In this document: piece after piece, positions 5,345 to 14,388 of the stretch
Numbering within the stretch: position 1 is the first letter of the stretch
Layout of the letters: each line of letters opens with the position of its first letter
Origin: Litoreibacter sp.
Lineage (GTDB): Bacteria > Pseudomonadota > Alphaproteobacteria > Rhodobacterales > Rhodobacteraceae
Assembly (NCBI GenBank): GCA_013042765.1
Contig: JABDPP010000346.1
Location: 1 to 15,580 of the forward strand
Length of the DNA: 15,580 nucleotides
Reading direction: 5' to 3'
The notes under the pieces: generated by a model
Told to the model about the DNA's origin: nothing
Seen by the model: the letters and a program-made list of their open reading frames with translations, nothing else
The model's database searches: none
Translations under genes and position numbers: made by a program

Positions 5345-7090
5345 GTGACACAAAATAAGAGCTTGTTGCATCTGCGCCTGAAGGAGCTGGTTCAACGAAT
5401 TTACCCTGAAATTGCTGCAGACGCCCTCGTCAAACAGGTCGAAGACGCTTTCTGGCCCAACGGTACAAGCTGTCGAAAGCGGGCGCGTGTGCCCGGTAAC
5501 AGCCTGTGGTCGGAACATGATGCGGTCCTGATTACCTACGGCGATTCCATCACGGACGGGCGCCACAAACCCCTGGACCTCCTCGAAAATTTTCTGTCGC
5601 GCAAGATGGATGGCGTGGTCAACGGCATTCACATTTTGCCGTTTTTTCCCTTCAGTTCTGACGATGGGTTCGCGGTAACCGATTACCGGGCCGTCAACTC
5701 AAGACTGGGGGATTGGAGCGATGTAACCCGGATCGCATCGCGGTTTCACCTGATGTCGGATCTGGTCCTCAACCACGTCTCCAGCCAGAGTGCGTGGTTC
5801 AATGCCTACCGGCAGGGCAACAGCCCCTATGACCGGTTCTTTTTCGAGGCGGATCCGGAAGATGATCTCTCCCGCGTGGTGCGGCCACGGACAACGCCGC
5901 TCCAGCAGAAGGTAGAGACACGTGATGGCGCGCGGCATGTCTGGTGCACATTCAGCCATGACCAGATAGATCTCGATTTTTCAAATCCGGAGGTCCTGCT
6001 GGTGATGCTGCGGATCATCCGGATTCATATCGACAAGGGCGTGCGGATCCTGCGGCTCGATGCGGTTGCGTTCATCTGGAAAGAGCCTGGTTCGACCTGC
6101 ATTCATCTGCCACAGACCCACGCCATTGTTCAGTTGCTTCGCCTGCTTTGCGATTATGCCCATGAAACGGTTGTCCTTCTGACCGAGACCAATGTTCCGC
6201 GCACCGAAAACCTCAGCTATTTCGGCAATCGCAACGAGGCGCACGCGGTCTACAATTTTCCGCTGCCGCCACTGATCCTGCATGCAATGCAGTCGGGCAC
6301 CGCACGCTATCTCCACCGCTGGCAATCCGCGATGCCGCCCGCGCAACTTGGTTGCGCCTATCTCAATTTCACCGCCAGCCATGACGGGATAGGCATGCGC
6401 CCGGCCGAAGGGGTCCTGCCGCCGGAGGAGCGGGACCGGATGATCGACACCGCCCTTGAGGCGGGAGCTTTGGTGTCCATGCGGGCATTGCCAGACGGCA
6501 CCGAGGCCCCTTACGAGCTGAACTGCGCGCTGTTTGATGTGCTGCGCCGCACGTTCAAAGGCGAAGATGACCTCCACATTGATCGGTTCCTGTGCTCGCA
6601 GACGATCCCGATGTCCCTTGAAGGTATTCCCGCCTTCTACATTCATTCCCTTCTTGCCACGCGGCATGATCACGACGCGGTCGAGCGGCGCGGCATGAAT
6701 CGCGCCATCAACCGGCATAGGTGGCACTATCCCGATCTTCTGGAGCGTCTCGCCGACCCCGAGACAGACCAGTCCCGGGTTCTCGAGGCCTTGTCCGAAC
6801 GGCTGCGGTTGCGCGCAAGACAACCGGCCTTTCACCCCAACGGAACCCAGTTCACGCTGCGGATGGATGACCGCCTGTTCGGGGTCTGGCGCCAGAGCCT
6901 TGATCGCAACCAGTCTGTCTTTGCCATCCACAATGTCAGCAATGAGACCGTTCAGGTGAGCCCTTCGGAGATCAACCTGATCGAAGATGACAGCTGGATC
7001 GACCTGATCAGCGGCGAACAGATCGTTCCATCCGCGCCGGAGATCCCTTTCGCGCCCTACCAGTGCCGGTGGATTTCAAACCGGGCGTGA
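5345..7090 (+). CDS. GH13_18 sugar phosphorylase, probable glucosylglycerate phosphorylase (YcjM-like)
   Basis: 581 residues starting at GTG, with AGGAG about 10 bases upstream. This is a (beta/alpha)8 enzyme of the sucrose-phosphorylase subfamily. Conserved region I is DLVLNH. The catalytic nucleophile is Asp239 in RLDAV, the acid/base is Glu281 in LTETN, and the transition-state Asp347 lies in ASHDGIG. The blocks KEPGSTCIHLPQTH and PDGTEAPYELN closely resemble E. coli YcjM, a glucosylglycerate phosphorylase, as I recall its sequence. It would use phosphate to cleave 2-O-alpha-glucosyl-D-glycerate to glucose 1-phosphate and glycerate in the cytoplasm. This reading is strengthened by gpgS and gpgP converging on it from the other strand. 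Sucrose phosphorylase or another GH13_18 acceptor specificity is the alternative. I found no convincing promoter in the 172-bp gap upstream. Confidence 0.85.
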   Translation: MTQNKSLLHLRLKELVQRIYPEIAADALVKQVEDAFWPNGTSCRKRARVPGNSLWSEHDAVLITYGDSITDGRHKPLDLLENFLSRKMDGVVNGIHILPFFPFSSDDGFAVTDYRAVNSRLGDWSDVTRIASRFHLMSDLVLNHVSSQSAWFNAYRQGNSPYDRFFFEADPEDDLSRVVRPRTTPLQQKVETRDGARHVWCTFSHDQIDLDFSNPEVLLVMLRIIRIHIDKGVRILRLDAVAFIWKEPGSTCIHLPQTHAIVQLLRLLCDYAHETVVLLTETNVPRTENLSYFGNRNEAHAVYNFPLPPLILHAMQSGTARYLHRWQSAMPPAQLGCAYLNFTASHDGIGMRPAEGVLPPEERDRMIDTALEAGALVSMRALPDGTEAPYELNCALFDVLRRTFKGEDDLHIDRFLCSQTIPMSLEGIPAFYIHSLLATRHDHDAVERRGMNRAINRHRWHYPDLLERLADPETDQSRVLEALSERLRLRARQPAFHPNGTQFTLRMDDRLFGVWRQSLDRNQSVFAIHNVSNETVQVSPSEINLIEDDSWIDLISGEQIVPSAPEIPFAPYQCRWISNRA

Positions 7091-7114
7091 CGCCTCGACG
7101 GCATCCGACCACGG

Positions 7115-8335
7115 TCAGCCAAATTCCTGCGCATCTTCTGCGGCCGCGAGCCTGAAATCCTGCAAGAATTCAGGGTCTGCGGCGTTCACCCTGCTCCAGG
7201 TCGCGATAAACGGAGTGTCATGCGGATTATCGAGGAACATTTGCCCTGCGCGGATGATGTTCTCCGCAAAGAGTTCAACCGATTTTTCTTCCTTGTGGCG
7301 GTCGACCACCAAGCCGTTCATCTTCGCGTCGTTGTAGTAGCTCTCCAGAAGGTCGAGCGCGACACGGTAGTAAGTCGCTTTCAACGACCGAAACAGATTC
7401 GGCGTGAACACCGTACCATCAGCGGCAAGTTTGCGGAAAATAGCCTTGCAGATATCCGTCGACATCCGGCTCAAACCCCGCGACGCGTCTTCGGGCGACA
7501 GGTCCTGATGCTTATGGTCATAGGCATCCGAAATCTCCACCTGGCAGACCGACTGGGGGGCCAAGTTACGCCACGCTTCCGACAGAACCCCGACCTCGAG
7601 CCCCCAATCCGAGGGAATGCGGAGGTCTGGCAGGGAAGGTGTACGCATCGCGAACTCTCCCGACAGCGGGTAGCGGAAACTGCGCAGATAATCGAGGTAG
7701 TCGCGGTCGCCGATGACCTTCTTCAGGGCGATCAGAAGCGGGCTTATCAAGAGACGCGTAACACGGCCGTTCATATGCTTGCCATCGGTTCTGGGATAAA
7801 ATCCCTTGGCCATCTGGTAGCGGAAATCGGGGTGCGCGACCGGATAGACAAGGCGGGCCAGCATCTCTTTGCGGTAGGTGAGAATATCGCAGTCATGGAT
7901 CGCCATCACCGAGGTATCCGCGCAGGCGATGAGATAGCCGATGCAACTCCAGACATTCTTGCCCTTGCCGGGCTCGAGAGGAGAAAGCCCCATTTTTTCA
8001 AGCCGTTGACCCAGAGACTTCATGCGAGGGCTATCGTTCCAGATCACGATATGCTGTTGCGGCAGGCGTGAAAAATAGCTCTGTGCATGGCGGAACTGGG
8101 CTTCATCCGCCTGATCGAGGCCAACAATGATCCTGTGCAGGTACGGCACCTCCGATAGTTCATCGAGAATGCCGGATAGGGCCGGCCCTTCAAGCTCGGA
8201 GTAAAGACTGGGAAGAACAAGCGTGATCTTGCGGGTTTCCGCAAAGGCATTCAGCTCATAGGTCAGGTCATCAAGGTTGCGCGTCCGGAGGTTGTGCAGC
8301 GTCGCAATATTGCCGTTCTGATGGAAATCAGCCAT
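7115..8335 (-). CDS. gpgS: Glucosyl-3-phosphoglycerate synthase (GT81 glycosyltransferase)
   Basis: 406 residues from the ATG at 8335; the longer open frame reaching 8548 only overlaps the phosphatase gene. The GT-A fold is visible: a VLPSLYSELEG strand-loop near residue 40, GKGKNVW near 124, and the metal/nucleotide-binding DCD at 148-150. The GT81 region LSGEFAM, then IPSDWGLEVGVLSE, is followed by YDHKHQ with the likely metal-binding histidine. This resembles actinobacterial GpgS. It should transfer glucose from an NDP-glucose to 3-phosphoglycerate, the committed step to the compatible solute glucosylglycerate. The start overlaps the gpgP stop by 8 bases (ATGGCTGA), so the pair is coupled. 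It ends 24 bases from the stop of the convergent phosphorylase. A mannosyl- rather than glucosyl-donor cannot be excluded from sequence alone. Confidence 0.85.
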   Translation of the reverse strand: MADFHQNGNIATLHNLRTRNLDDLTYELNAFAETRKITLVLPSLYSELEGPALSGILDELSEVPYLHRIIVGLDQADEAQFRHAQSYFSRLPQQHIVIWNDSPRMKSLGQRLEKMGLSPLEPGKGKNVWSCIGYLIACADTSVMAIHDCDILTYRKEMLARLVYPVAHPDFRYQMAKGFYPRTDGKHMNGRVTRLLISPLLIALKKVIGDRDYLDYLRSFRYPLSGEFAMRTPSLPDLRIPSDWGLEVGVLSEAWRNLAPQSVCQVEISDAYDHKHQDLSPEDASRGLSRMSTDICKAIFRKLAADGTVFTPNLFRSLKATYYRVALDLLESYYNDAKMNGLVVDRHKEEKSVELFAENIIRAGQMFLDNPHDTPFIATWSRVNAADPEFLQDFRLAAAEDAQEFG

Positions 8336-9122
8336 GGAATGTCGGCTCTCTCTTCGTTGAAAATTCGTCCAATATCTCTGACACCGCGTCGCTCCAGCCG
8401 TCGGGTCCTTCGCGCTCGGTACGCCGGATGCGCCCGCTGTCTTCGCCCGGCAGGCGTGGCACGTCGGGACCCGCGCGGTTCGCCACGATGATCCCGATAT
8501 CCGCCCACTGGAGCATCTCCGCATCGTTTGGAGCATCCCCGAGGGCAATACTGTGTTTCGGTCTGTAGCGTTTGATCAGATCGACCACCCGATCGGCTTT
8601 TGTCTCGCCGAAGGAGAGTGCCGTAAAACGCCCGCCCCGCTGCACGAATAGCCCCGCTTCCCGCGCCGCGTCGGTAAATCTCTGGAAATCCGCTTCAGCC
8701 CCGATCCAAAGCCCAGGTTCGCTGAATTGCCGCGCCTTGGCATGTTCAGCACTCTGCGGAGAAAGGCCTGTGAGAGCGCTAATTTCATCGTTCGTCATAT
8801 CGCCAAACCCCCTGAAACCTTGCGGGAGGTCACGCAGCGCTGCACGTATCTCCTGATAGATCGAGGTGTCTTGGGTTGGCTGGTTGCCCGGCTCGAGAAG
8901 ACCACCGCCATTCTCGACAATTGCCGGCCAGGTGGAGAAGCCGATCTCTGCACGCAGTGGCGCAACCTCTGCCGCCGTCTTGCTGGTCGCCAGCACAAGC
9001 CCCGCATTCATTGTCCGAAGCCGCGCAAGCGCCGGCTCCGCTGCACGCCATTGATAAGTCTCGTGGTCCAGCAACGTCCCGTCGAGATCGGAGAAGATAA
9101 GGATTTCAGGACCCGGGCTCAT
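8328..9122 (-). CDS. gpgP: HAD-IIB glucosyl/mannosyl-3-phosphoglycerate phosphatase
   Basis: 264 residues, normal for the mannosyl-3-phosphoglycerate phosphatase family. HAD motif I is SDLDGTLLD with nucleophile Asp12 and acid/base Asp14. Motif II is LATSK (Ser47), the conserved lysine is Lys175 in GETKAD, and motif III is LGDAPND (Asp196, Asp200). The family-specific RQFSEP (131-136) and GPDGW (239-243) are also present. It removes the phosphate from glucosyl-3-phosphoglycerate made by the coupled downstream synthase, releasing glucosylglycerate. Mannosyl substrates are also known in this family. The ATG at 9122 is preceded by an in-frame stop and has almost no Shine-Dalgarno sequence, which suggests a very short leader. 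A candidate EcfG-like promoter and a 13-bp dyad lie just upstream. Confidence 0.88.
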   Translation of the reverse strand: MSPGPEILIFSDLDGTLLDHETYQWRAAEPALARLRTMNAGLVLATSKTAAEVAPLRAEIGFSTWPAIVENGGGLLEPGNQPTQDTSIYQEIRAALRDLPQGFRGFGDMTNDEISALTGLSPQSAEHAKARQFSEPGLWIGAEADFQRFTDAAREAGLFVQRGGRFTALSFGETKADRVVDLIKRYRPKHSIALGDAPNDAEMLQWADIGIIVANRAGPDVPRLPGEDSGRIRRTEREGPDGWSDAVSEILDEFSTKREPTFHG

Positions 9123-9135
9123 ATCGCCACATTAC

Positions 9136-9163
9136 AGAACGAAACCGCATAACGCGAGGTTCA
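9136..9163 (-). promoter_or_regulatory. Candidate general-stress (EcfG-type) promoter of gpgP-gpgS
   Basis: Reading the minus strand, TGAAC (9163-9159) is followed after 17 bases by CGTT (9141-9138). This is near the alphaproteobacterial EcfG/RpoE-like consensus GGAAC-N16-17-CGTT, with one mismatch in the -35 element. Transcription would start about 7 bases before the gpgP ATG, which fits that gene's missing Shine-Dalgarno sequence. Stress control of a compatible-solute operon is biologically sensible, but short matches like this occur by chance. Confidence 0.28.
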
Positions 9164-9168
9164 ACCTC
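9156..9168. repeat. 13-bp perfect inverted repeat GAGGTT-C-AACCTC upstream of gpgP
   Basis: Two 6-base arms around a single central base, 34 bases before the gpgP start and overlapping the proposed -35 element. It could be an operator. It has no T-tract and essentially no loop, so it is not a terminator. Confidence 0.4.
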
Positions 9169-9180
9169 AGGCGCCAGCGG

Positions 9181-9204
9181 AAACCCTTCGGCAAACCTTT
9201 CGGC
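9181..9204. repeat. Two tandem 12-bp units (AAACC[C/T]TTCGGC)
   Basis: Adjacent 12-base copies differ at one position. They lie inside a loop flanked by an 8-bp inverted repeat, CCAGCGGA (9174-9181) and TCCGCTGG (9229-9236). All of this falls in the 125-bp gap between the ATP-grasp/CapA stop and gpgP. The function is unknown; it may be a regulatory region or a chance repeat. Confidence 0.35.
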
Positions 9205-9247
9205 GACTGGCCAACAAGGCTTTATGTCTCCGCTGGAGCTGCTGACC

Positions 9248-11482
9248 CTAGTCTAGTTGCGCGCAACGCCGGCTAACGGGGCCGGCTCTCTCAACAAAGT
9301 ACCCGCGACTGTCCTGACCGAGCGAGAATGACTGCTGAAATATTCGCTGACCTCTCTCTGTGAGGATGTCGTAAACCTCCAGCGCCTCCTTTTCAGTGAC
9401 CGGACGTGGCGAAAAACCGGTTATACGATTATCGGAAACGATCGGATATAGCCGCAACCGCGTTGCCCATCGCTTCGCATGGCGCTGAAGGTTCAGGCGT
9501 GCGACGAGGCTAAAGGGAGGCGCCCCCAATTTTTGGTACCTGCCTGGCGAGTTGAAAACGAAATTACCCAGAGAGAAAATCGTTGTATCGCGATCCTCGA
9601 CCCAGCATTGCTGCATCATATGAGCGCCATGCCCCATCACCAGGTCAGCGCCAGCTTTAAGAAACGAGGTGTTGACCTTGAACATTTTCTCGTTGGCCCA
9701 AGCATAGTTTTTCGAAGCACCCCAGTGCGGGAAAGCCACGATAAACGCGGTCTGGTCCTTCGACCTCAGATCACGAATTTCGTCTGCCAGCTGGTTGTCG
9801 GGGGCTTGCCGAAACCGCTGGACCCCGGGGCGCGCGCGTGCGGAATAGAAACGATACTTCTCGTGGTAGCTTCGGCGATATTCAAATCCGCTCAAGATAT
9901 GGACGTTGCCTAGATGCGTCGACAGGGTCAGAGGATGTGAAGATTCAAGGCGGTCGTTGCCTGCGCCAAAGGCATTCACGCCCTCTTTCTTGAAGTGGTC
10001 AATGGTTTCCATCAGAGACGCAGCGCCAAAGTCCATGGTGTGGTTATTCGCAAGCGAGACTGAATCGACGCCAATTGATTTGAGGGTCGAAACCGTGCGA
10101 TCCGGATCATCCAGCCCCATGAACTTCTTCTCACCTCCCCAAGGATCGGATGCACGATCAGCCAAAACACTTTCGAAATTTAGGACGAAATGGGATTTAT
10201 CGGTGATGAGCGGTGACAGCCTTTCGAAGAAGCTCTCAGGCTCTTTGCAAAGGCGTAGCTGAGCGTCTGGATATTTGCCACGGGCCAGATACGTATCGCC
10301 AAGGCTGGTATCCCCCCCGAACACCAAAGTCATTTCATCGTCTCTAGGCACGAGAGCAGTATTCGCCTTTGAGGCTCTCGCTGGCGACGGCTTGGACCTA
10401 GTCTTCTCCAACACAGTTTCCAACAAACCCATTCGCTCGACACAAGATTCAACAATCAAACGCGCAACATTGATCGGTTCCCCGAAATCAGGGAACTGGT
10501 GCCCCATGATCCTCGCGTCGGTGTTAACCTCCAAAACGATGTAATTATTGCCTGAGATTGGCTTCGAATGGTCTTCGGCAATGATATCCGCGCCAAGCAC
10601 GTGTAGGCCCGGGAAAGTCTTGGTAATCTTCTCGACCAGGGCGATCATGGAGGGATGAACCCTGCCCGTGATATTCACTGTATCGCCACCCGGGCCGGGA
10701 CCTGATTTGAGATCCAGCACAACGGTCTCATCCTTCCCGAGAACGGAATTCAGAGTGAAACCTCGCTGCTTGAGGAATGCTAGCTGTTCAACAGTCTTCC
10801 GGATCAGGTATTTGCGACGGCACGGGTTGTTGCAACGAACCGCGTTTGTCCGCTCGACCAATTCTTCGATCGTGCTGGTTCCGTCACCAATCACGAAGGG
10901 TGGCAACCTCAACGCAACGGCTACGCATTTACCGTCGATCACCAGATACCGGGCTTCCTTGCCTCCGCTGATGAAGCGTTCAATGAGAATACCTTTTTTC
11001 GTCTCAAGGCTGGCTTTCTTCCAAGCCGCCTCGAAGGTATCCGGCGTAACATCGAGCGATACGCCTTTGCCTTGATGACCATCCAATGGTTTGACCGCGA
11101 CATGCGGCGTGCTTTCTACGAAACACCGAGCGCCCTCTTTATCATCGAGCGAGAAATGATCGCCTTCTGAAACCCTGATTCCGGCCTCTGCCAGAAGGAC
11201 TTTCGTCAAAGGCTTGTCCTTTACCAGTCTACTTGTGAGGTTGGAATCGAACCCTGTGACATTTTGTGAATTGAAGGTTGCCGTTCCTTCTTTCGTGGAA
11301 CGGATCACTGATCCAAATTCCTCGACCCGAAAGCCCAGTTTTCTGAATTCACCAGCTATCAACTTATTGGTAGCGAACTCTTCTCCCGAAAAGTCGTTTC
11401 TCTTCTCGTCTCGGAAATCCAGTGCTTCTTCAAACAAGATAATGTCTGGCCACCCTAAATCAGCGTCGTAGCTAGAATTCAC
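9248..11482 (-). CDS. Fusion of cyanophycin-synthetase-like ATP-grasp ligase and CapA-type metallophosphoesterase domain
   Basis: 744 residues. Residues about 85-350 form an ATP-grasp of the CphA/GshF type: DKPLTKVLLAEAGI, the ATP lysine in VAVKPLDGHQGKG (128-140), ILIERFISGGKEARYLV (165-181), VIGDGTSTIEELV, PGGDTVNITGRVHP (264-277), LGADII, and the Mg-binding LEVN near 317-320. A proline/serine linker (about 360-382) leads to a CapA (PGA_cap) domain: VFGGDTSLGD (387-396), LNFESVL (434-440), SLANNHTMDFG (476-486), FPHWG (584-588), MGHGAHMMQ (616-624), FSLGNFVF (636-643). There is no CphA Mur-ligase half and no signal or membrane segment, although CapA proteins are usually membrane-anchored. 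It may join and/or process a peptide-like product; the substrate is unknown. The GTG start follows a stop codon and lacks a good ribosome site; TTG 45 bases on is an alternative. Hand-counted lines give 42-55% GC. Confidence 0.85.
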   Translation of the reverse strand: MNSSYDADLGWPDIILFEEALDFRDEKRNDFSGEEFATNKLIAGEFRKLGFRVEEFGSVIRSTKEGTATFNSQNVTGFDSNLTSRLVKDKPLTKVLLAEAGIRVSEGDHFSLDDKEGARCFVESTPHVAVKPLDGHQGKGVSLDVTPDTFEAAWKKASLETKKGILIERFISGGKEARYLVIDGKCVAVALRLPPFVIGDGTSTIEELVERTNAVRCNNPCRRKYLIRKTVEQLAFLKQRGFTLNSVLGKDETVVLDLKSGPGPGGDTVNITGRVHPSMIALVEKITKTFPGLHVLGADIIAEDHSKPISGNNYIVLEVNTDARIMGHQFPDFGEPINVARLIVESCVERMGLLETVLEKTRSKPSPARASKANTALVPRDDEMTLVFGGDTSLGDTYLARGKYPDAQLRLCKEPESFFERLSPLITDKSHFVLNFESVLADRASDPWGGEKKFMGLDDPDRTVSTLKSIGVDSVSLANNHTMDFGAASLMETIDHFKKEGVNAFGAGNDRLESSHPLTLSTHLGNVHILSGFEYRRSYHEKYRFYSARARPGVQRFRQAPDNQLADEIRDLRSKDQTAFIVAFPHWGASKNYAWANEKMFKVNTSFLKAGADLVMGHGAHMMQQCWVEDRDTTIFSLGNFVFNSPGRYQKLGAPPFSLVARLNLQRHAKRWATRLRLYPIVSDNRITGFSPRPVTEKEALEVYDILTERGQRIFQQSFSLGQDSRGYFVERAGPVSRRCAQLD

Positions 11483-11486
11483 CTAT

Positions 11487-11496
11487 CCAATATTGG
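11487..11496. promoter_or_regulatory. 10-bp palindrome CCAATATTGG at the ATP-grasp/CapA start
   Basis: A perfect palindrome 5 bases upstream of the GTG start, where a ribosome-binding site would be expected. On the minus strand a loose sigma-70-like pair lies above it: TTGTCA (11542-11537), a 19-base spacer, AATATT (11517-11512). It could be an operator blocking initiation; the evidence is weak. Confidence 0.25.
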
Positions 11497-11544
11497 TACT
11501 TGGCAAGGGAAAATATTCGGTTCCGACTGAAAACGATGACAAAA

Positions 11545-11567
11545 GGTCGCGACCGTTGTATCGCGAC
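11545..11567. repeat. Palindrome GGTCGCGACC followed by a repeated TCGCGAC
   Basis: A 10-bp perfect palindrome (11545-11554) shares TCGCGAC with a second copy at 11561-11567, set 14 bases apart, in the 167-bp gap between tarD and the ATP-grasp/CapA gene. The spacing of about 1.4 helical turns is not typical of a dimer site. It is a possible regulator-binding region only. Confidence 0.25.
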
Positions 11568-11649
11568 ACCGGTCTTTGTAGCTTCGACGCCGACGCTCCA
11601 GAAACTCCTCGAAAGCTGAACACCTGCCTGCGCACAAGCCTGCCTACCC

Positions 11650-12819
11650 TCAGGTACCGGTCGCTTCACGCAAGCACTTGATCAGTTTCTGCTTACACTC
11701 AAAGCCAATTCCGGGCGCATCTGGCAGGCCGATACGTCCGTCCTCAACCTGCGTGTGGTCGGCGAATCCACCGAAAGGCGCAAAGACCTCTGGGTAGCTT
11801 TCGTTACCGCCGAGTTTCAGGCCCGCCGCAATGTTGAGCGACAGCTGGTGACCACCATGAGGCACGACGTTGCGACTGGAAAACCCGTAATCCGGCAAAA
11901 GCGCGAGCGTACGTAGGTACTCCACGAGACCATAGGACAGCGCGCAGTCGAACTGCAGCCAGTCGCGATCGGGCCGCATGCCGCCGTGACGCAGAAGGTT
12001 GCGCGCATCCTGGTGACTGAAAAGGTTCTCACCGGTCGCCATCGGTCCGTCGTAATGCTTCGCTAATTCGGCCTGCAGGGCATAATCCAGCGGATCGCCG
12101 GCCTCCTCGTACCAGAACAGGCCGTATTGGCTCATCCCTTCCGCATAGGCGATAGCCGTATCGAGGTCGAACCGGCCATTGGCGTCCACGGCAAGGTATT
12201 TGCCGTCACCGACGACCTCAAGAACCGCCTCGATCCGACGCTTGTCCTCGTCCAGAGACGCGCCCCCGATCTTCATCTTGACGACCTCATAGCCCATGCC
12301 ACGGTAGCGTCGCATCTCCTCCTGCAGTTGTGTGTCATCCTTGCCGGGGTAGTAATAACCGCCCGCCGCATAAACAAAGACGCTATCATCGGCGGTGCCG
12401 TCACCTTCAGTATCTGCGAGATAGCGCCACAGGGGCACGCCCGCGATCTTGGCCACCGCATCCCAGACCGCCATGTCGACCACGCCCACCGCGACCGAGC
12501 GTTCGCCGTGTCCCCCCGGTTTCTCATTGGACATCATCGTGGCCCAGATCCGGCGCGGGTCGAGGTTGTCGCCAGCCTCGTTCAGCAGGCTATCGGCGTT
12601 CGCTTCGCGGAGCCGGGGCAGAAAGCGCTCGTTCAGAAGCCCCGAAGCGGCATAGCGGCCGTTCGAGTTGAACCCATAGCCGACGACGGGCTTTCCATCG
12701 CGGATCACGTCCGTCACCACAGCCACAACACTCGCAGTCATCTTCGAAAAATCGATATACGCGTTCCGGATCGGAGAGGAGATCGGAACCACGGCCTCCC
12801 GAATGTCAACGATACGCAT
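11650..12819 (-). CDS. tarD: D(-)-tartrate dehydratase (enolase superfamily)
   Basis: 389 residues, the same length as Bradyrhizobium TarD as I recall it. It belongs to the mandelate-racemase group. The second-strand motif VVKMKIGG holds Lys181 and Lys183, and Mg ligands are Asp212 (VDANG), Glu238 (WYEE) and Glu264 (TGEN). The catalytic histidine is His321 in VPHGGHQ. Each of these is one position before the residue reported for the Bradyrhizobium enzyme (Lys184, Asp213, Glu239, Glu265, His322). It dehydrates D-tartrate to oxaloacetate in the cytoplasm. It follows matB by 57 bases on the same strand and has a strong AGGAGGT ribosome site, so it is likely the last gene of the dicarboxylate operon. 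A related acid-sugar dehydratase is possible, but the motif match makes TarD the best call. Confidence 0.9.
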   Translation of the reverse strand: MRIVDIREAVVPISSPIRNAYIDFSKMTASVVAVVTDVIRDGKPVVGYGFNSNGRYAASGLLNERFLPRLREANADSLLNEAGDNLDPRRIWATMMSNEKPGGHGERSVAVGVVDMAVWDAVAKIAGVPLWRYLADTEGDGTADDSVFVYAAGGYYYPGKDDTQLQEEMRRYRGMGYEVVKMKIGGASLDEDKRRIEAVLEVVGDGKYLAVDANGRFDLDTAIAYAEGMSQYGLFWYEEAGDPLDYALQAELAKHYDGPMATGENLFSHQDARNLLRHGGMRPDRDWLQFDCALSYGLVEYLRTLALLPDYGFSSRNVVPHGGHQLSLNIAAGLKLGGNESYPEVFAPFGGFADHTQVEDGRIGLPDAPGIGFECKQKLIKCLREATGT

Positions 12820-12827
12820 ACTTTCTT

Positions 12828-12834
12828 ACCTCCT
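12828..12834 (-). promoter_or_regulatory. Near-ideal Shine-Dalgarno of tarD (AGGAGGT)
   Basis: AGGAGGT lies 8 bases before the ATG at 12819 on the minus strand. It fixes the tarD start and indicates strong translation of this gene independent of matB. Confidence 0.8.
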
Positions 12835-12876
12835 GAGATCGGAGCAACTTGAAGAAGCCACTCCAAAACATTGTTA

Positions 12877-14388
12877 TTATTTGTTAAATACGCCCTGATA
12901 TTCATCACGCAGAATGTTCTTCTGGACCTTGCCCATCGTGTTGCGCGGCAGTTCTTCCACGAAATACACCAGCTTGGGAAGTTTGTACTTGGCCAATCGT
13001 TCCTGAAGCGCTGTCTGAATACCCTCAGCCACAATTTGTGATCCGCCCTCGCGGACCACCGCGGCGACCACGGCCTCCCCGAAATCGGGATGCGGCACGC
13101 CAATCACCGCCGATTCCAGCACGCCGTCCAACGCGTCGATTTCGGATTCGACCTCTTTGGGATAGACGTTGTAGCCGCCGGAAATCACGAGATCCTTGGC
13201 GCGCCCCACGATGGTGACGTAGCCCTCCGCGTCGATCCGGGCGATGTCGCCAGTGATAAAGAAGCCATCCGCTCGAAACTCCTCCGCGGTCTTTTCCGGC
13301 ATCCGCCAGTAGCCCTTGAAGACGTTTGGGCCGCGCACCTCCAGGATACCCACCTCGCCCTGTTCCAGCACCGCGCCGGTCTCGGCATCGGTGATGCGCG
13401 CCTCCACGCGTGGCAGCGGGAAGCCCACGGTTCCGGCGCGACGTTCCCCGTCATAGGGGTTCGAGGTGCTCATGGTTGTTTCGGTCATGCCGTAGCGCTC
13501 GAGGATCCGGTGACCTGTACGCGCCTCGAACGCCTGATGCGTCTCGGCCAGCAGCGGCGCGCTACCGGAGATGAAAAGCCGCATATGCGACGTCAGATCG
13601 CGGTCGAACCGGGCGTCGCTCAAGAGGCGGGTGTAGAAGGTTGGCACGCCCATCATAGCCGTGGCCTCCGGCAGACGCGCGATTACCGTTTCGAGGTCGA
13701 ACTTCGGCAGGAAGATCATCCGCCCGCCGACCCTGAGCAGCACGTTAACGGCCACGAACAACCCGTGGGCATGGAAGATCGGCAGAGCATGGAGCAGCAC
13801 GTCGTCACTGGTAAAGCGCCATGTTTCCACCAGCGCTTCGGTGTTCGACAGAAGATTGTCCTGGCTCAGCATTGCGCCCTTGGAGCGCCCCGTCGTGCCC
13901 GAGGTGTAAAGGATCGCGGCCAGGTCATCCGGCTCACGCGGCACTGTGGCGAATTCATCAGGTGCTGTTGCTGCGCCTTCGGCAAGTGTTCCGCCTCCCG
14001 CCCCGTCCAGGGTCAGCAGCTCAATTCCCTTATCGCGCGCCATGGGACCCAAAGCCGCCTCGGATGCGGGATCACAAATCGCAACGCGAGGCTCTGCGTC
14101 CCCAAGAAAATAGTCAAGCTCGGCTGTCGTGTAAGCCGTGTTGAGCGGCAAAAACAGAGCCCCCGCGCGCAAACAGGCGAGGTAGAGTGCAAGCGCCTCC
14201 ACCGACTTCTCAGCCTGTATTGCCACGCGATCCCCGGGTTGCAGGCCTGCGCCCACCAGAACGTTGGCAATCTGCCCCGATAGACGGTAGAGCGCATCAC
14301 CTGACAGCGTACTACCATCCGGACGGATCAAAACGGCATCGGCGCGTCCCGAAAGAGGAGCGACCAGAGCATCGGCAAGTGGATTCAT
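12877..14388 (-). CDS. matB: Malonyl-CoA synthetase (malonate-CoA ligase)
   Basis: 503 residues from the ATG at 14388, very like Rhizobium MatB in length and sequence. It is an adenylate-forming enzyme with the phosphate-binding loop YTSGTTGRSKGAM (161-173), the ALPIFHAHGLF and LFISGSAPLLAETH blocks typical of MatB, YGMTET (299-304), VISGGYNVYPKEVE (401-414), and catalytic Lys487 in PRNTMGK. It activates malonate with ATP and CoA to malonyl-CoA through malonyl-AMP. The ATG overlaps the transporter stop by 4 bases (ATGA), indicating coupling. The open frame continues upstream to 14487, but that extension only overlaps the transporter gene and is rejected. No matA-type malonyl-CoA decarboxylase or matC carrier is visible; the upstream crotonase and TauE/SafE protein may replace them. 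Confidence 0.94.
   Translation of the reverse strand: MNPLADALVAPLSGRADAVLIRPDGSTLSGDALYRLSGQIANVLVGAGLQPGDRVAIQAEKSVEALALYLACLRAGALFLPLNTAYTTAELDYFLGDAEPRVAICDPASEAALGPMARDKGIELLTLDGAGGGTLAEGAATAPDEFATVPREPDDLAAILYTSGTTGRSKGAMLSQDNLLSNTEALVETWRFTSDDVLLHALPIFHAHGLFVAVNVLLRVGGRMIFLPKFDLETVIARLPEATAMMGVPTFYTRLLSDARFDRDLTSHMRLFISGSAPLLAETHQAFEARTGHRILERYGMTETTMSTSNPYDGERRAGTVGFPLPRVEARITDAETGAVLEQGEVGILEVRGPNVFKGYWRMPEKTAEEFRADGFFITGDIARIDAEGYVTIVGRAKDLVISGGYNVYPKEVESEIDALDGVLESAVIGVPHPDFGEAVVAAVVREGGSQIVAEGIQTALQERLAKYKLPKLVYFVEELPRNTMGKVQKNILRDEYQGVFNK

Follow-up and report, generated by a model that had tools for sequence, protein, structure and literature searches.

Contig JABDPP010000346.1 of a Litoreibacter sp. 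assembly (GCA_013042765.1; 15,580 nucleotides, analysed as a whole and called the window below) encodes at positions 9248–11482 a protein that combines an ATP-grasp domain with a CapA domain. Its sequence points to a single, apparently soluble chain, in which the ligase half of the ATP-grasp type is intact and followed by the CapA half. As its function we propose, with an even chance of being right, that of a cytosolic bifunctional ligase-epimerase making a D-residue-containing peptide or oligoamide. While both domains and the pairing of CapA with a ligase are known, the soluble one-chain ATP-grasp form and the unnamed type of gene cluster described below appear to be new. We found no description of a one-chain ATP-grasp-CapA protein in the full-text literature, based on titles and abstract starts among the matches listed and with subscription literature mostly outside the coverage.

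An earlier note on this DNA had recognized the single chain without giving its strand. The gene is confirmed here on the minus strand, plus-strand frame 1 of the same positions being riddled with stops. The start codon is uncertain (GTG at 11482 or TTG at 11437). If not stated otherwise, residues are numbered for the longer form; CapA residue numbers in this 744-residue numbering are those of the 729-residue numbering plus 15. The domain limits of the earlier note (residues 85–350 and 387–643) agree with the profile matches, i.e., 78–346 for the NCBIfam cyanophycin synthetase (CphA) models and 385–644 for the Pfam profile PGA_cap (PF09587; 147.5 bits vs. a cut-off of 27), which places the second half in the CapA family. 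No membrane segment is evident in a 19-residue hydropathy scan: the maximum of 1.61 lies within the ATP-grasp half and the first 70 residues do not exceed 0.32, in line with the claimed lack of an anchor. With regard to composition, the gene has a GC content of 52.7% (GC3 0.59) compared to 57.5–63.1% (GC3 0.66–0.75) for nine neighbouring genes, and the low value is found in both halves. That is, the gene is of lower GC as had been noticed, while the single-line counts given for this (42–55% vs. 73%) overstate the gap.

The ATP-grasp half is very probably able to make an amide bond, as judged from its motifs. The cyanophycin synthetase models reach 172 bits in a partial match (cut-offs 850–877), and the CphA structure 7lg5 from the PDB is matched with E 5e-40. 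Generic Pfam ATP-grasp models match weakly, with CPSase_L_D2 alone just above its cut-off. The NCBIfam cut-offs of GshF (133 of 425 bits) and N-acetylglutaminylglutamine synthetase (114 of 569 bits) are far from being reached; both enzymes belong to the same CphA-like ATP-grasp branch as the query, which is without the GshA part of the former and the acetyltransferase part of the latter. Residue roles in CphA1 were taken from PMC9427784 (excerpts, as for all articles cited here). CphA1 Lys220, Lys261, Arg309, Arg323, Asp431 and Glu450 correspond to K90, K131, R178, R192, D299 and E318, and N320 is retained as well. Thus, the features of an ATP-grasp amide ligase are in place, i.e., the two ATP lysines (K90/K131), the Mg site (D299/E318/N320) and the equivalent of the substrate-binding Arg309 (R178); the loss of catalytic residues, which the earlier note had named as a possible refutation, is not observed on alignment to CphA1.

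In contrast, Glu215, His267 and Arg458, which are specific for CphA1, are replaced by Arg (R85), Gln (Q137) and Met. The same pattern is seen for the fused relatives: the Arg309 site is R in 58/62, the Asp431 site D in 60/62 and the Glu450 site E in 57/62 domains, while Arg458 is kept in 7/62 and His is not among the five most frequent residues of the His267 site (52/62 rows). Among 56 CphA-type rows, Glu215 is kept in 46, His267 in 48 and Arg458 in all 56. The query thus shares with the CphA1 G domain (PDB 7lg5, 7wac; residues 78–346 align, 33–39% identity to CphA-type proteins) the ATP/Mg residues and the equivalents of Arg309 and Arg323, but it lacks the N domain, the Mur-ligase half and the three specific residues. 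Given that the ATP/Mg residues are kept and the CphA1-specific ones lost, it should ligate but not make cyanophycin.

For the CapA half, we lean slightly towards epimerisation as the predicted activity. The sole significant solved relative of the CapA-subfamily profile among the PDB sequences is MslH (PDB 8gq9; E 7.8e-18), a lasso-peptide C-terminal Trp epimerase of the CapA family. MslH residues Asp11, Glu44, Asn87, His88, Asp91, His259 and His295 correspond to D391, E437, N480, H481, D484, H586 and H621, and these seven positions are conserved in at least 104 of 105 CapA domains (domains over 200 bits). Using the roles described for MslH and YmdB in PMC10406935, both catalytic pairs are present in the query (His88/Asp91 and His295/Asp11 as H466/D469 and H606/D376 in 729-residue numbering), as are three of the four Ca ligands (Glu44, Asn87, His259). 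That is, MslH and the CapA half share the family by sequence, both His/Asp pairs and three metal ligands; they differ in that the query is fused to an ATP-grasp ligase, has no lasso-peptide genes among the window's scanned open reading frames (ORFs), and deviates in two further respects weighed below. With a peptide epimerase as its only sequence relative of solved structure, the earlier suggestion that the second half trims the product is less likely than stated, and epimerisation fits better.

The pairing of CapA with an amide ligase is also known from the poly-gamma-glutamate synthetase PgsBCA/CapBCA. There, the ligase is the Mur-type CapB, while the query uses ATP-grasp and is one soluble chain. 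With Pfam, neither CapB nor CapC was found among the ten window ORFs scanned (neither family was searched genome-wide), such that the earlier statement that neither partner is present holds for these ORFs. The PgsBCA arrangement, i.e., CapB and CapC beside a membrane-anchored CapA, is therefore not seen for the fusion gene within these ORFs.

Taken together, we expect the ATP-grasp half to form an acyl phosphate from a carboxylate and to couple it with an amine. If it resembles CphA1 in this respect, an amino acid or short peptide would be activated at its C-terminal carboxyl group. The CapA half, if MslH-like, would invert the alpha-carbon of the C-terminal residue via metal-assisted His/Asp acid-base chemistry, and both halves would presumably act on the same C-terminal end. 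The product may be a dipeptide, oligopeptide or short polyamide with D residues, probably finished by other proteins such as c2 (see below). Like the two reactions, substrate, product and metal are inferred, and an osmoprotective or surface-peptide role of the product is conceivable. A comparable sequence of steps has been engineered: the ATP-grasp ligase TabS combined with a Thermotoga maritima epimerase made L-Cys-D-Val, with the C-terminal residue being epimerised after ATP-grasp ligation, though by two separate enzymes in a man-made combination instead of one natural chain (PMC13338154).

Next, we consider the relatives. The homologue search revealed CapA and a ligase together in about 60 proteins, with either domain order; in databases, such proteins go by the names 'CapA family protein' or 'ATP-grasp domain-containing protein'. 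Full-length relatives of the same order from other assemblies are P0003 from a Paracoccaceae metagenome-assembled genome (MAG), which is the nearest one with 69% identity over 97% of the query, as well as P0004 (53%), P0005 (51%), P0007 (49%) and L002 (47%). Using our own domain profiles, we assigned architectures to 107 CapA rows: CapA-ATPgrasp (32), CapA-TupA (28), ATPgrasp-CapA, i.e., the query order (17), CapA without detected partner (9), enolase-CapA-ATPgrasp (6), CapA-MurF (5), enolase-CapA (4) and MurF-CapA (2), plus one row each of ATPgrasp-CapA-ATPgrasp (L003), ATPgrasp-CapA-ATPgrasp-ATPgrasp, CapA-ATPgrasp-ATPgrasp and ATPgrasp-MurF-CapA. These rows contain the window gene and the G066 gene twice each, some relatives as both database protein and locus, and one CapA call of 28 bits (L030, CapA-MurF). 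The L003 layout could show a possible route from one domain order to the other. The repeated fusion of CapA to ATP-grasp, TupA-type ATP-grasp or MurF-like ligases, together with ATP-grasp genes nearby, supports the ligase-epimerase. As an aside, a 2,274-residue frame of a Syntrophomonadaceae MAG (L016:735-7559) starts with CapA-ATPgrasp, while its remaining ~1,680 residues give no Pfam match at E 0.001.

The 94 distinct CapA domains entered a maximum-likelihood tree, which requires at least 18 changes of architecture label (3 for the query order); several rows are long-branched. In a quick tree, the query forms a group with 10 further ATPgrasp-CapA proteins and two CapA proteins that stand alone. 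One of the latter is from Microvirga massiliensis (L005) and has a CphA-like protein and an ABC/HlyD exporter as neighbours; a Microvirga ossetica plasmid likewise carries ABC, HlyD and a CphA-CapA fusion together. This suggests export in the branch that contains Microvirga. The query order is also found with a distant CapA branch (P0030, G066, G574).

Enolase is fused to CapA in nine of the 94 tree rows. For the one member tested (L008), the enolase part weakly matches solved 1wue (1e-8), 3rit ('dipeptide epimerase'; 1.6e-7) and 1jpm ('L-Ala-D/L-Glu epimerase'; 3.8e-6) as well as muconate cycloisomerases, while it stays below the cut-off of the N-acetyl-D-Glu racemase DgcA (46 of 400 bits). 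CapA and a dipeptide-epimerase-like enolase thus occur with the same ligases, i.e., two unrelated epimerase-like folds accompany them. We take the Thermotoga epimerase mentioned above to be of the enolase type as well, i.e., of another fold than CapA.

To place the fusions in context, loci were collected in one scan of genome contigs, keeping the best 80 of 313 relatives (78 loci), with three Phytoactinopolyspora and four Alkalicoccus near relatives counted separately. We distinguish subfamily CapA loci (CapA of at least 370 bits; 28 loci), intermediate (6) and other CapA loci (44). CapA is fused to a ligase in 25/28 subfamily, 1/6 intermediate and 0/44 other loci. Further ATP-grasp frames are found in the flanks of 18/28 subfamily loci (at least three in 14, up to nine in L003 from Halomonas heilongjiangensis) and of 2/6 intermediate loci, compared to 1/44 others, i.e., L037 from Salinicoccus albus with five, where the match to the query falls in the ATP-grasp half. 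The comparison of the 28 with the 44 loci is biased, since ranking with the full-length query puts loci with ATP-grasp above those with CapA only. Ten of the 28 subfamily loci, including L002, are without a further ATP-grasp frame, which counts against a universal array. Based on one representative per gene cluster, the arrays further comprise TupA-type and 'sugar-transfer' ATP-grasps as well as family 2 glycosyltransferases and ABC transporters, and the bacillar ones a peptidoglycan-binding glucosaminidase. Four to nine separate ATP-grasp frames form the arrays of L003, L010, L015, L019, L023, L024, L025 and L026, all of which but L023 have separate TupA-type ATP-grasp and family 2 glycosyltransferase genes. 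Host names comprise Halomonas, Vreelandella, Haloechinothrix, Phytoactinopolyspora, Alkalicoccus, Salipaludibacillus, Natribacillus, Alteribacter and Shouchella, with exceptions such as Microvirga. From these names we take many hosts of arrays and relatives to be halophiles or alkaliphiles, and some of the MAGs are presumably from soda lakes.

The analysis also revealed a recurrent partner of the CapA fusions, as judged by sequence, namely a protein of ~370 residues that we call c2 (alignment motifs YNxLRHAG, YYPGEA, DHW and RxDxxQH). No dedicated Pfam or NCBIfam model was found for it; c2 of L002 has no match of note in either collection, and two bacillar forms are just above the cut-off of the GH127 barrel model. 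An identification via the PDB failed, with six insignificant matches (best E 0.27) that we take to be alpha/alpha barrel or toroid sugar enzymes (mannanase, pectate lyase, cellobiose 2-epimerase), while for one bacillar c2 sequence used by itself, three ankyrin designs were the only matches. The evidence being weak, the c2 fold is probably an alpha/alpha barrel.

Fusions and neighbours were searched with a c2 profile from seven proteins not taken from CapA loci. Fusions with c2 take the form of CapA-ATPgrasp-c2 (L014, truncated at the end of its contig), CapA-c2 (P0060), c2-ATPgrasp (L022) and, as a weak match in pieces, c2-MurF-CapA (P0045). Furthermore, it lies beside or near CapA fusions on either strand in L002, L010, L013, L015, L019, L020, L024, L025 and L030. 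In L002, which belongs to the query's clade, c2 is the next gene, on the opposite strand to the fusion (L002:12426-13529, minus). P0128 (c2) and the 69% relative P0003 are both on Paracoccaceae MAG contigs of 2,651,973 bases, presumably the same contig. The host genome of the query (G000) encodes c2 on another contig, C220 (L108:2484-3629, minus; 48% identical to c2 of L002), where a gene that is sulfotransferase-like by eye follows just downstream on the same strand (L108:1671-2435). Among 394 family genomes, c2 is found at E 1e-30 in G000 and G197 only, which are also the two genomes with a query-like ATP-grasp beyond E 1e-60; both limits were chosen after seeing the matches.

At E 1e-15, c2 is present in 17/32 genomes with subfamily or intermediate CapA versus 1/44 controls (Salinicoccus albus); L017 was left out since its MAG name is that of L009. 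The profile used (A4) took 10 of its 17 rows from CapA-subfamily genomes, seven of them in the genome count, with L013 and two others outside it. Dropping these seven genomes leaves 10/25 versus 1/44 (Fisher p 8e-5, shared ancestry ignored). The lack of c2 in 15/32 genomes, including the array-bearing ones of Halomonas heilongjiangensis (L003), Haloechinothrix (L004, L006) and Phytoactinopolyspora (L007, L008, L018), counts against c2 as a fixed part. Beyond the CapA setting, c2 is widespread, with 1,189 homologues among 8,000 candidates scored. On plasmids, matches are confined to four Acinetobacter baumannii records, with c2 two genes from a CapA in the one record inspected. There (L112:2136-11757), a large Bap-family adhesin is followed by the c2-like gene, annotated as poly alpha-glucosyltransferase, a 160-residue ORF and an unannotated CapA ORF. 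Given that relatives repeatedly have c2 near CapA or in one chain with it, and that the host genome carries a c2 gene on another contig, the view that the fusion protein is self-contained appears doubtful.

From this context we propose tentatively, with less than even confidence, that the query represents the minimal version of a modular system for non-ribosomal amide assembly, as yet unnamed, in mainly halophilic and alkaliphilic hosts (by name). Within it, CapA would be a portable epimerase joined to or beside any of several ligases, i.e., CphA-like ATP-grasps in arrays, TupA-type ATP-grasps or MurF-like ligases, with the enolase epimerase and c2 as extra modules. Products would be D-residue peptides or (glyco)polyamides and could include an ATP-grasp route to gamma-glutamyl polymers in bacilli without pgs and cap genes. 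The CapA-TupA arrays of bacilli related to B. halodurans are candidates for the synthetase of L-poly-gamma-glutamate (L-PGA) discussed in PMC3815933.

We also studied the distribution of the gene. The window is the entire contig C258 of a 2.6 Mb assembly in 449 contigs (80% complete, 2.5% contaminated). The host genome shows one PGA_cap match and no second CapA at E 1e-3 (21-row profile A3, eight candidates scored). At E 1e-40, the query matches itself alone among 21 genus genomes, and the close query type is found in its own genome only among the 394 family genomes (at most two candidates scored per genome). Next best in the family is a stand-alone ATP-grasp gene in G197 (E 3.5e-68), while G066 carries a distant ATPgrasp-CapA fusion. 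At the level of the taxonomic order, 3/390 genomes reach E 1e-40, i.e., its own, G066 and G574, the latter two with distant fusions of the same domain order. A plasmid search gave one place covering more than 80% of the query, in Microvirga ossetica. Within the genus, the glucosyl-3-phosphoglycerate synthase-like gene (GpgS) and the enolase gene of the window are likewise absent from all 20 genus mates at E 1e-60, while MatB of the window is matched in 21/21 genus genomes at this threshold. The region is therefore sporadic in the genus, for which transfer or a mis-binned contig are possible explanations. The soluble-looking ligase-CapA chain of the earlier interpretation thus holds, with a sporadic occurrence in its family, while trimming is less likely than stated and self-containment doubtful. 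Two observations were made along the way: the fusion gene is two genes away from MatB, and the stand-alone ATP-grasp of G197 (L101:6087-9509) lies ~750 bases from a MatB homologue that is 63% identical to that of the window. In G066, the gene right after the fusion resembles type III polyketide (chalcone) synthases (L103:10511-11710).

Several points weigh against a ligase-epimerase. The fourth metal ligand of MslH, His261, is Gly in the query, and at this site we find Gln in 54, Gly in 41 and His in 2 of the 105 CapA domains; a nearby His (H603) might replace it. The MslH equivalog NF038314 gives 35.7 bits for a cut-off of 700. Moreover, calcineurin-like phosphoesterases largely share the His/Asp/Asn set, such that the set is compatible with epimerisation without proving it. 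According to PMC3815933, it is generally the donor carboxylate that ATP-grasp amide ligases activate, with no stereochemical inversion, which bears on the end that is extended; inversion is the step that a fused epimerase would add. The query's own branch is solitary, with no further ATP-grasp frame in the flanks of L002, and none was matched elsewhere in the 80%-complete host genome. Finally, no described function or product was found for the ATP-grasp-CapA relatives and no activity is known for any member. The architecture itself is not unique, with dozens of relatives in both orders.

Part of this evidence favours another reading of the CapA half, i.e., that it acts as a metallo-phosphoesterase or hydrolase, either to remove a phosphate or to release what the peptide ligase half has made. 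We regard it as unlikely, if worth serious attention. Its metal-site motifs are shared by calcineurin-like phosphoesterases, e.g., YmdB (PMC10406935), the His261 ligand is not conserved, and relatives with a fused acylphosphatase domain indicate that phosphate chemistry occurs in the family. On the other hand, the position of the second-metal Asn40 of YmdB is Thr or Ser in 93/105 CapA domains, MslH is the sole solved relative by sequence, and CapA is also joined to epimerase-like enolases. A further hypothesis concerns the product and is compatible with a ligase-epimerase, namely that the chain makes a gamma-glutamyl polymer or osmolyte for salt or alkali tolerance as the ATP-grasp counterpart of PgsBCA. 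Here, our expectation is low, although the gene is 125 bases from osmolyte-type genes and many hosts are, by what we take from their names, halophiles or alkaliphiles. B. halodurans makes L-PGA without pgs or cap genes, for which an ATP-grasp synthetase was suggested (PMC3815933), and TupA, fused to CapA in 28/107 rows, is linked to teichuronopeptide (PMC8153356). However, the osmolyte neighbours are private to the window, with no homologue of GpgS or mannosyl-3-phosphoglycerate phosphatase (MPGP) in the 34 loci L002-L035, and several relatives are solitary or in hosts without known halophily, e.g., Microvirga.

A cyanophycin synthetase or a decayed derivative is very improbable. The CphA models are indeed the best family matches of the ATP-grasp half (172 bits), and Microvirga has a long CphA-like protein beside CapA (L005, 411 bits) or fused to it (L111, 416 bits), but the query has neither the N domain nor the Mur-ligase half, carries Arg, Gln and Met for Glu215, His267 and Arg458, and misses the equivalog cut-off, such that we rejected this identity. 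The chance of an assembly or sequencing error joining two genes, another possible refutation named in the earlier note, is negligible: beyond the fragmentation into 449 contigs nothing speaks for it, the low GC is common to both halves, and full-length homologues of the same order in other assemblies rule it out. An anti-phage defence role was dropped as well, since a PADLOC search with five proteins gave no match.

With regard to the neighbouring genes (Table 1), no partner of the fusion protein was identified. Given the CapA-enolase fusions of relatives, the adjacent enolase seemed to be a Rosetta-stone link, but BLASTP against two CapA-fused enolases gave E 1.9 or worse. Its nearest solved relatives are 4kem and Bll6730 (2dw7, 1tzz), the latter presumably a D-tartrate dehydratase; by sequence, the gene appears to be a Bll6730-type dehydratase and not a partner. 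The osmolyte genes next door were rejected given their absence from the 34 loci. Together with a sucrose-phosphorylase-like GH13 gene, they form a probable glucosylglycerate-type osmolyte locus (5345–9122). The hairpin upstream of the fusion gene is weak evidence, since terminator-like sites in 7000–13000 are no commoner than expected by chance (6 vs. 5.7). At 472–2997, the window encodes a LonB/LonC-like AAA+ protease with a Lon_C match, below all listed NCBIfam cut-offs.

Table 1. Positions of the fusion gene, its parts and adjacent features within the window
Feature	Position	Strand	Remarks
ATP-grasp-CapA fusion gene	9248..11482	minus	744 residues from GTG 11482 or 729 residues from TTG 11437
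CphA/GshF-like ATP-grasp half	10406..11356	minus	residues 43-359 of 744 (domain envelope)
Linker	10346..10405	minus	residues 360-379, between the two domain envelopes
CapA (PGA_cap, calcineurin-like) half	9323..10345	minus	residues 380-720 of 744 (domain envelope)
Terminator-like hairpin	11546..11567	minus	between upstream enolase-superfamily gene and fusion gene
MPGP-type HAD phosphatase	8328..9122	minus	125 bases downstream; not shown to belong
GpgS-like glucosyl-3-phosphoglycerate synthase	7115..8548	minus	327 bits, model cut-off 700; not shown to belong
Enolase-superfamily protein near Bll6730 (2dw7) and 4kem	11650..12819	minus	judged unrelated

If the ligase-epimerase holds true, ligation and stereochemical inversion would be coupled in one soluble chain, i.e., a simple enzyme for D-residue peptides and a natural version of what PMC13338154 built from separate enzymes. 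Instead of a membrane accessory in capsule systems, CapA would be a module for peptide epimerisation in general, and the large c2 family gains a context. The finding would also point to little-explored ATP-grasp clusters in halophiles and alkaliphiles, and the question raised in 2013 (PMC3815933) for the source of the gamma-glutamyl polymer in a bacillus without pgs/cap operons would become testable.

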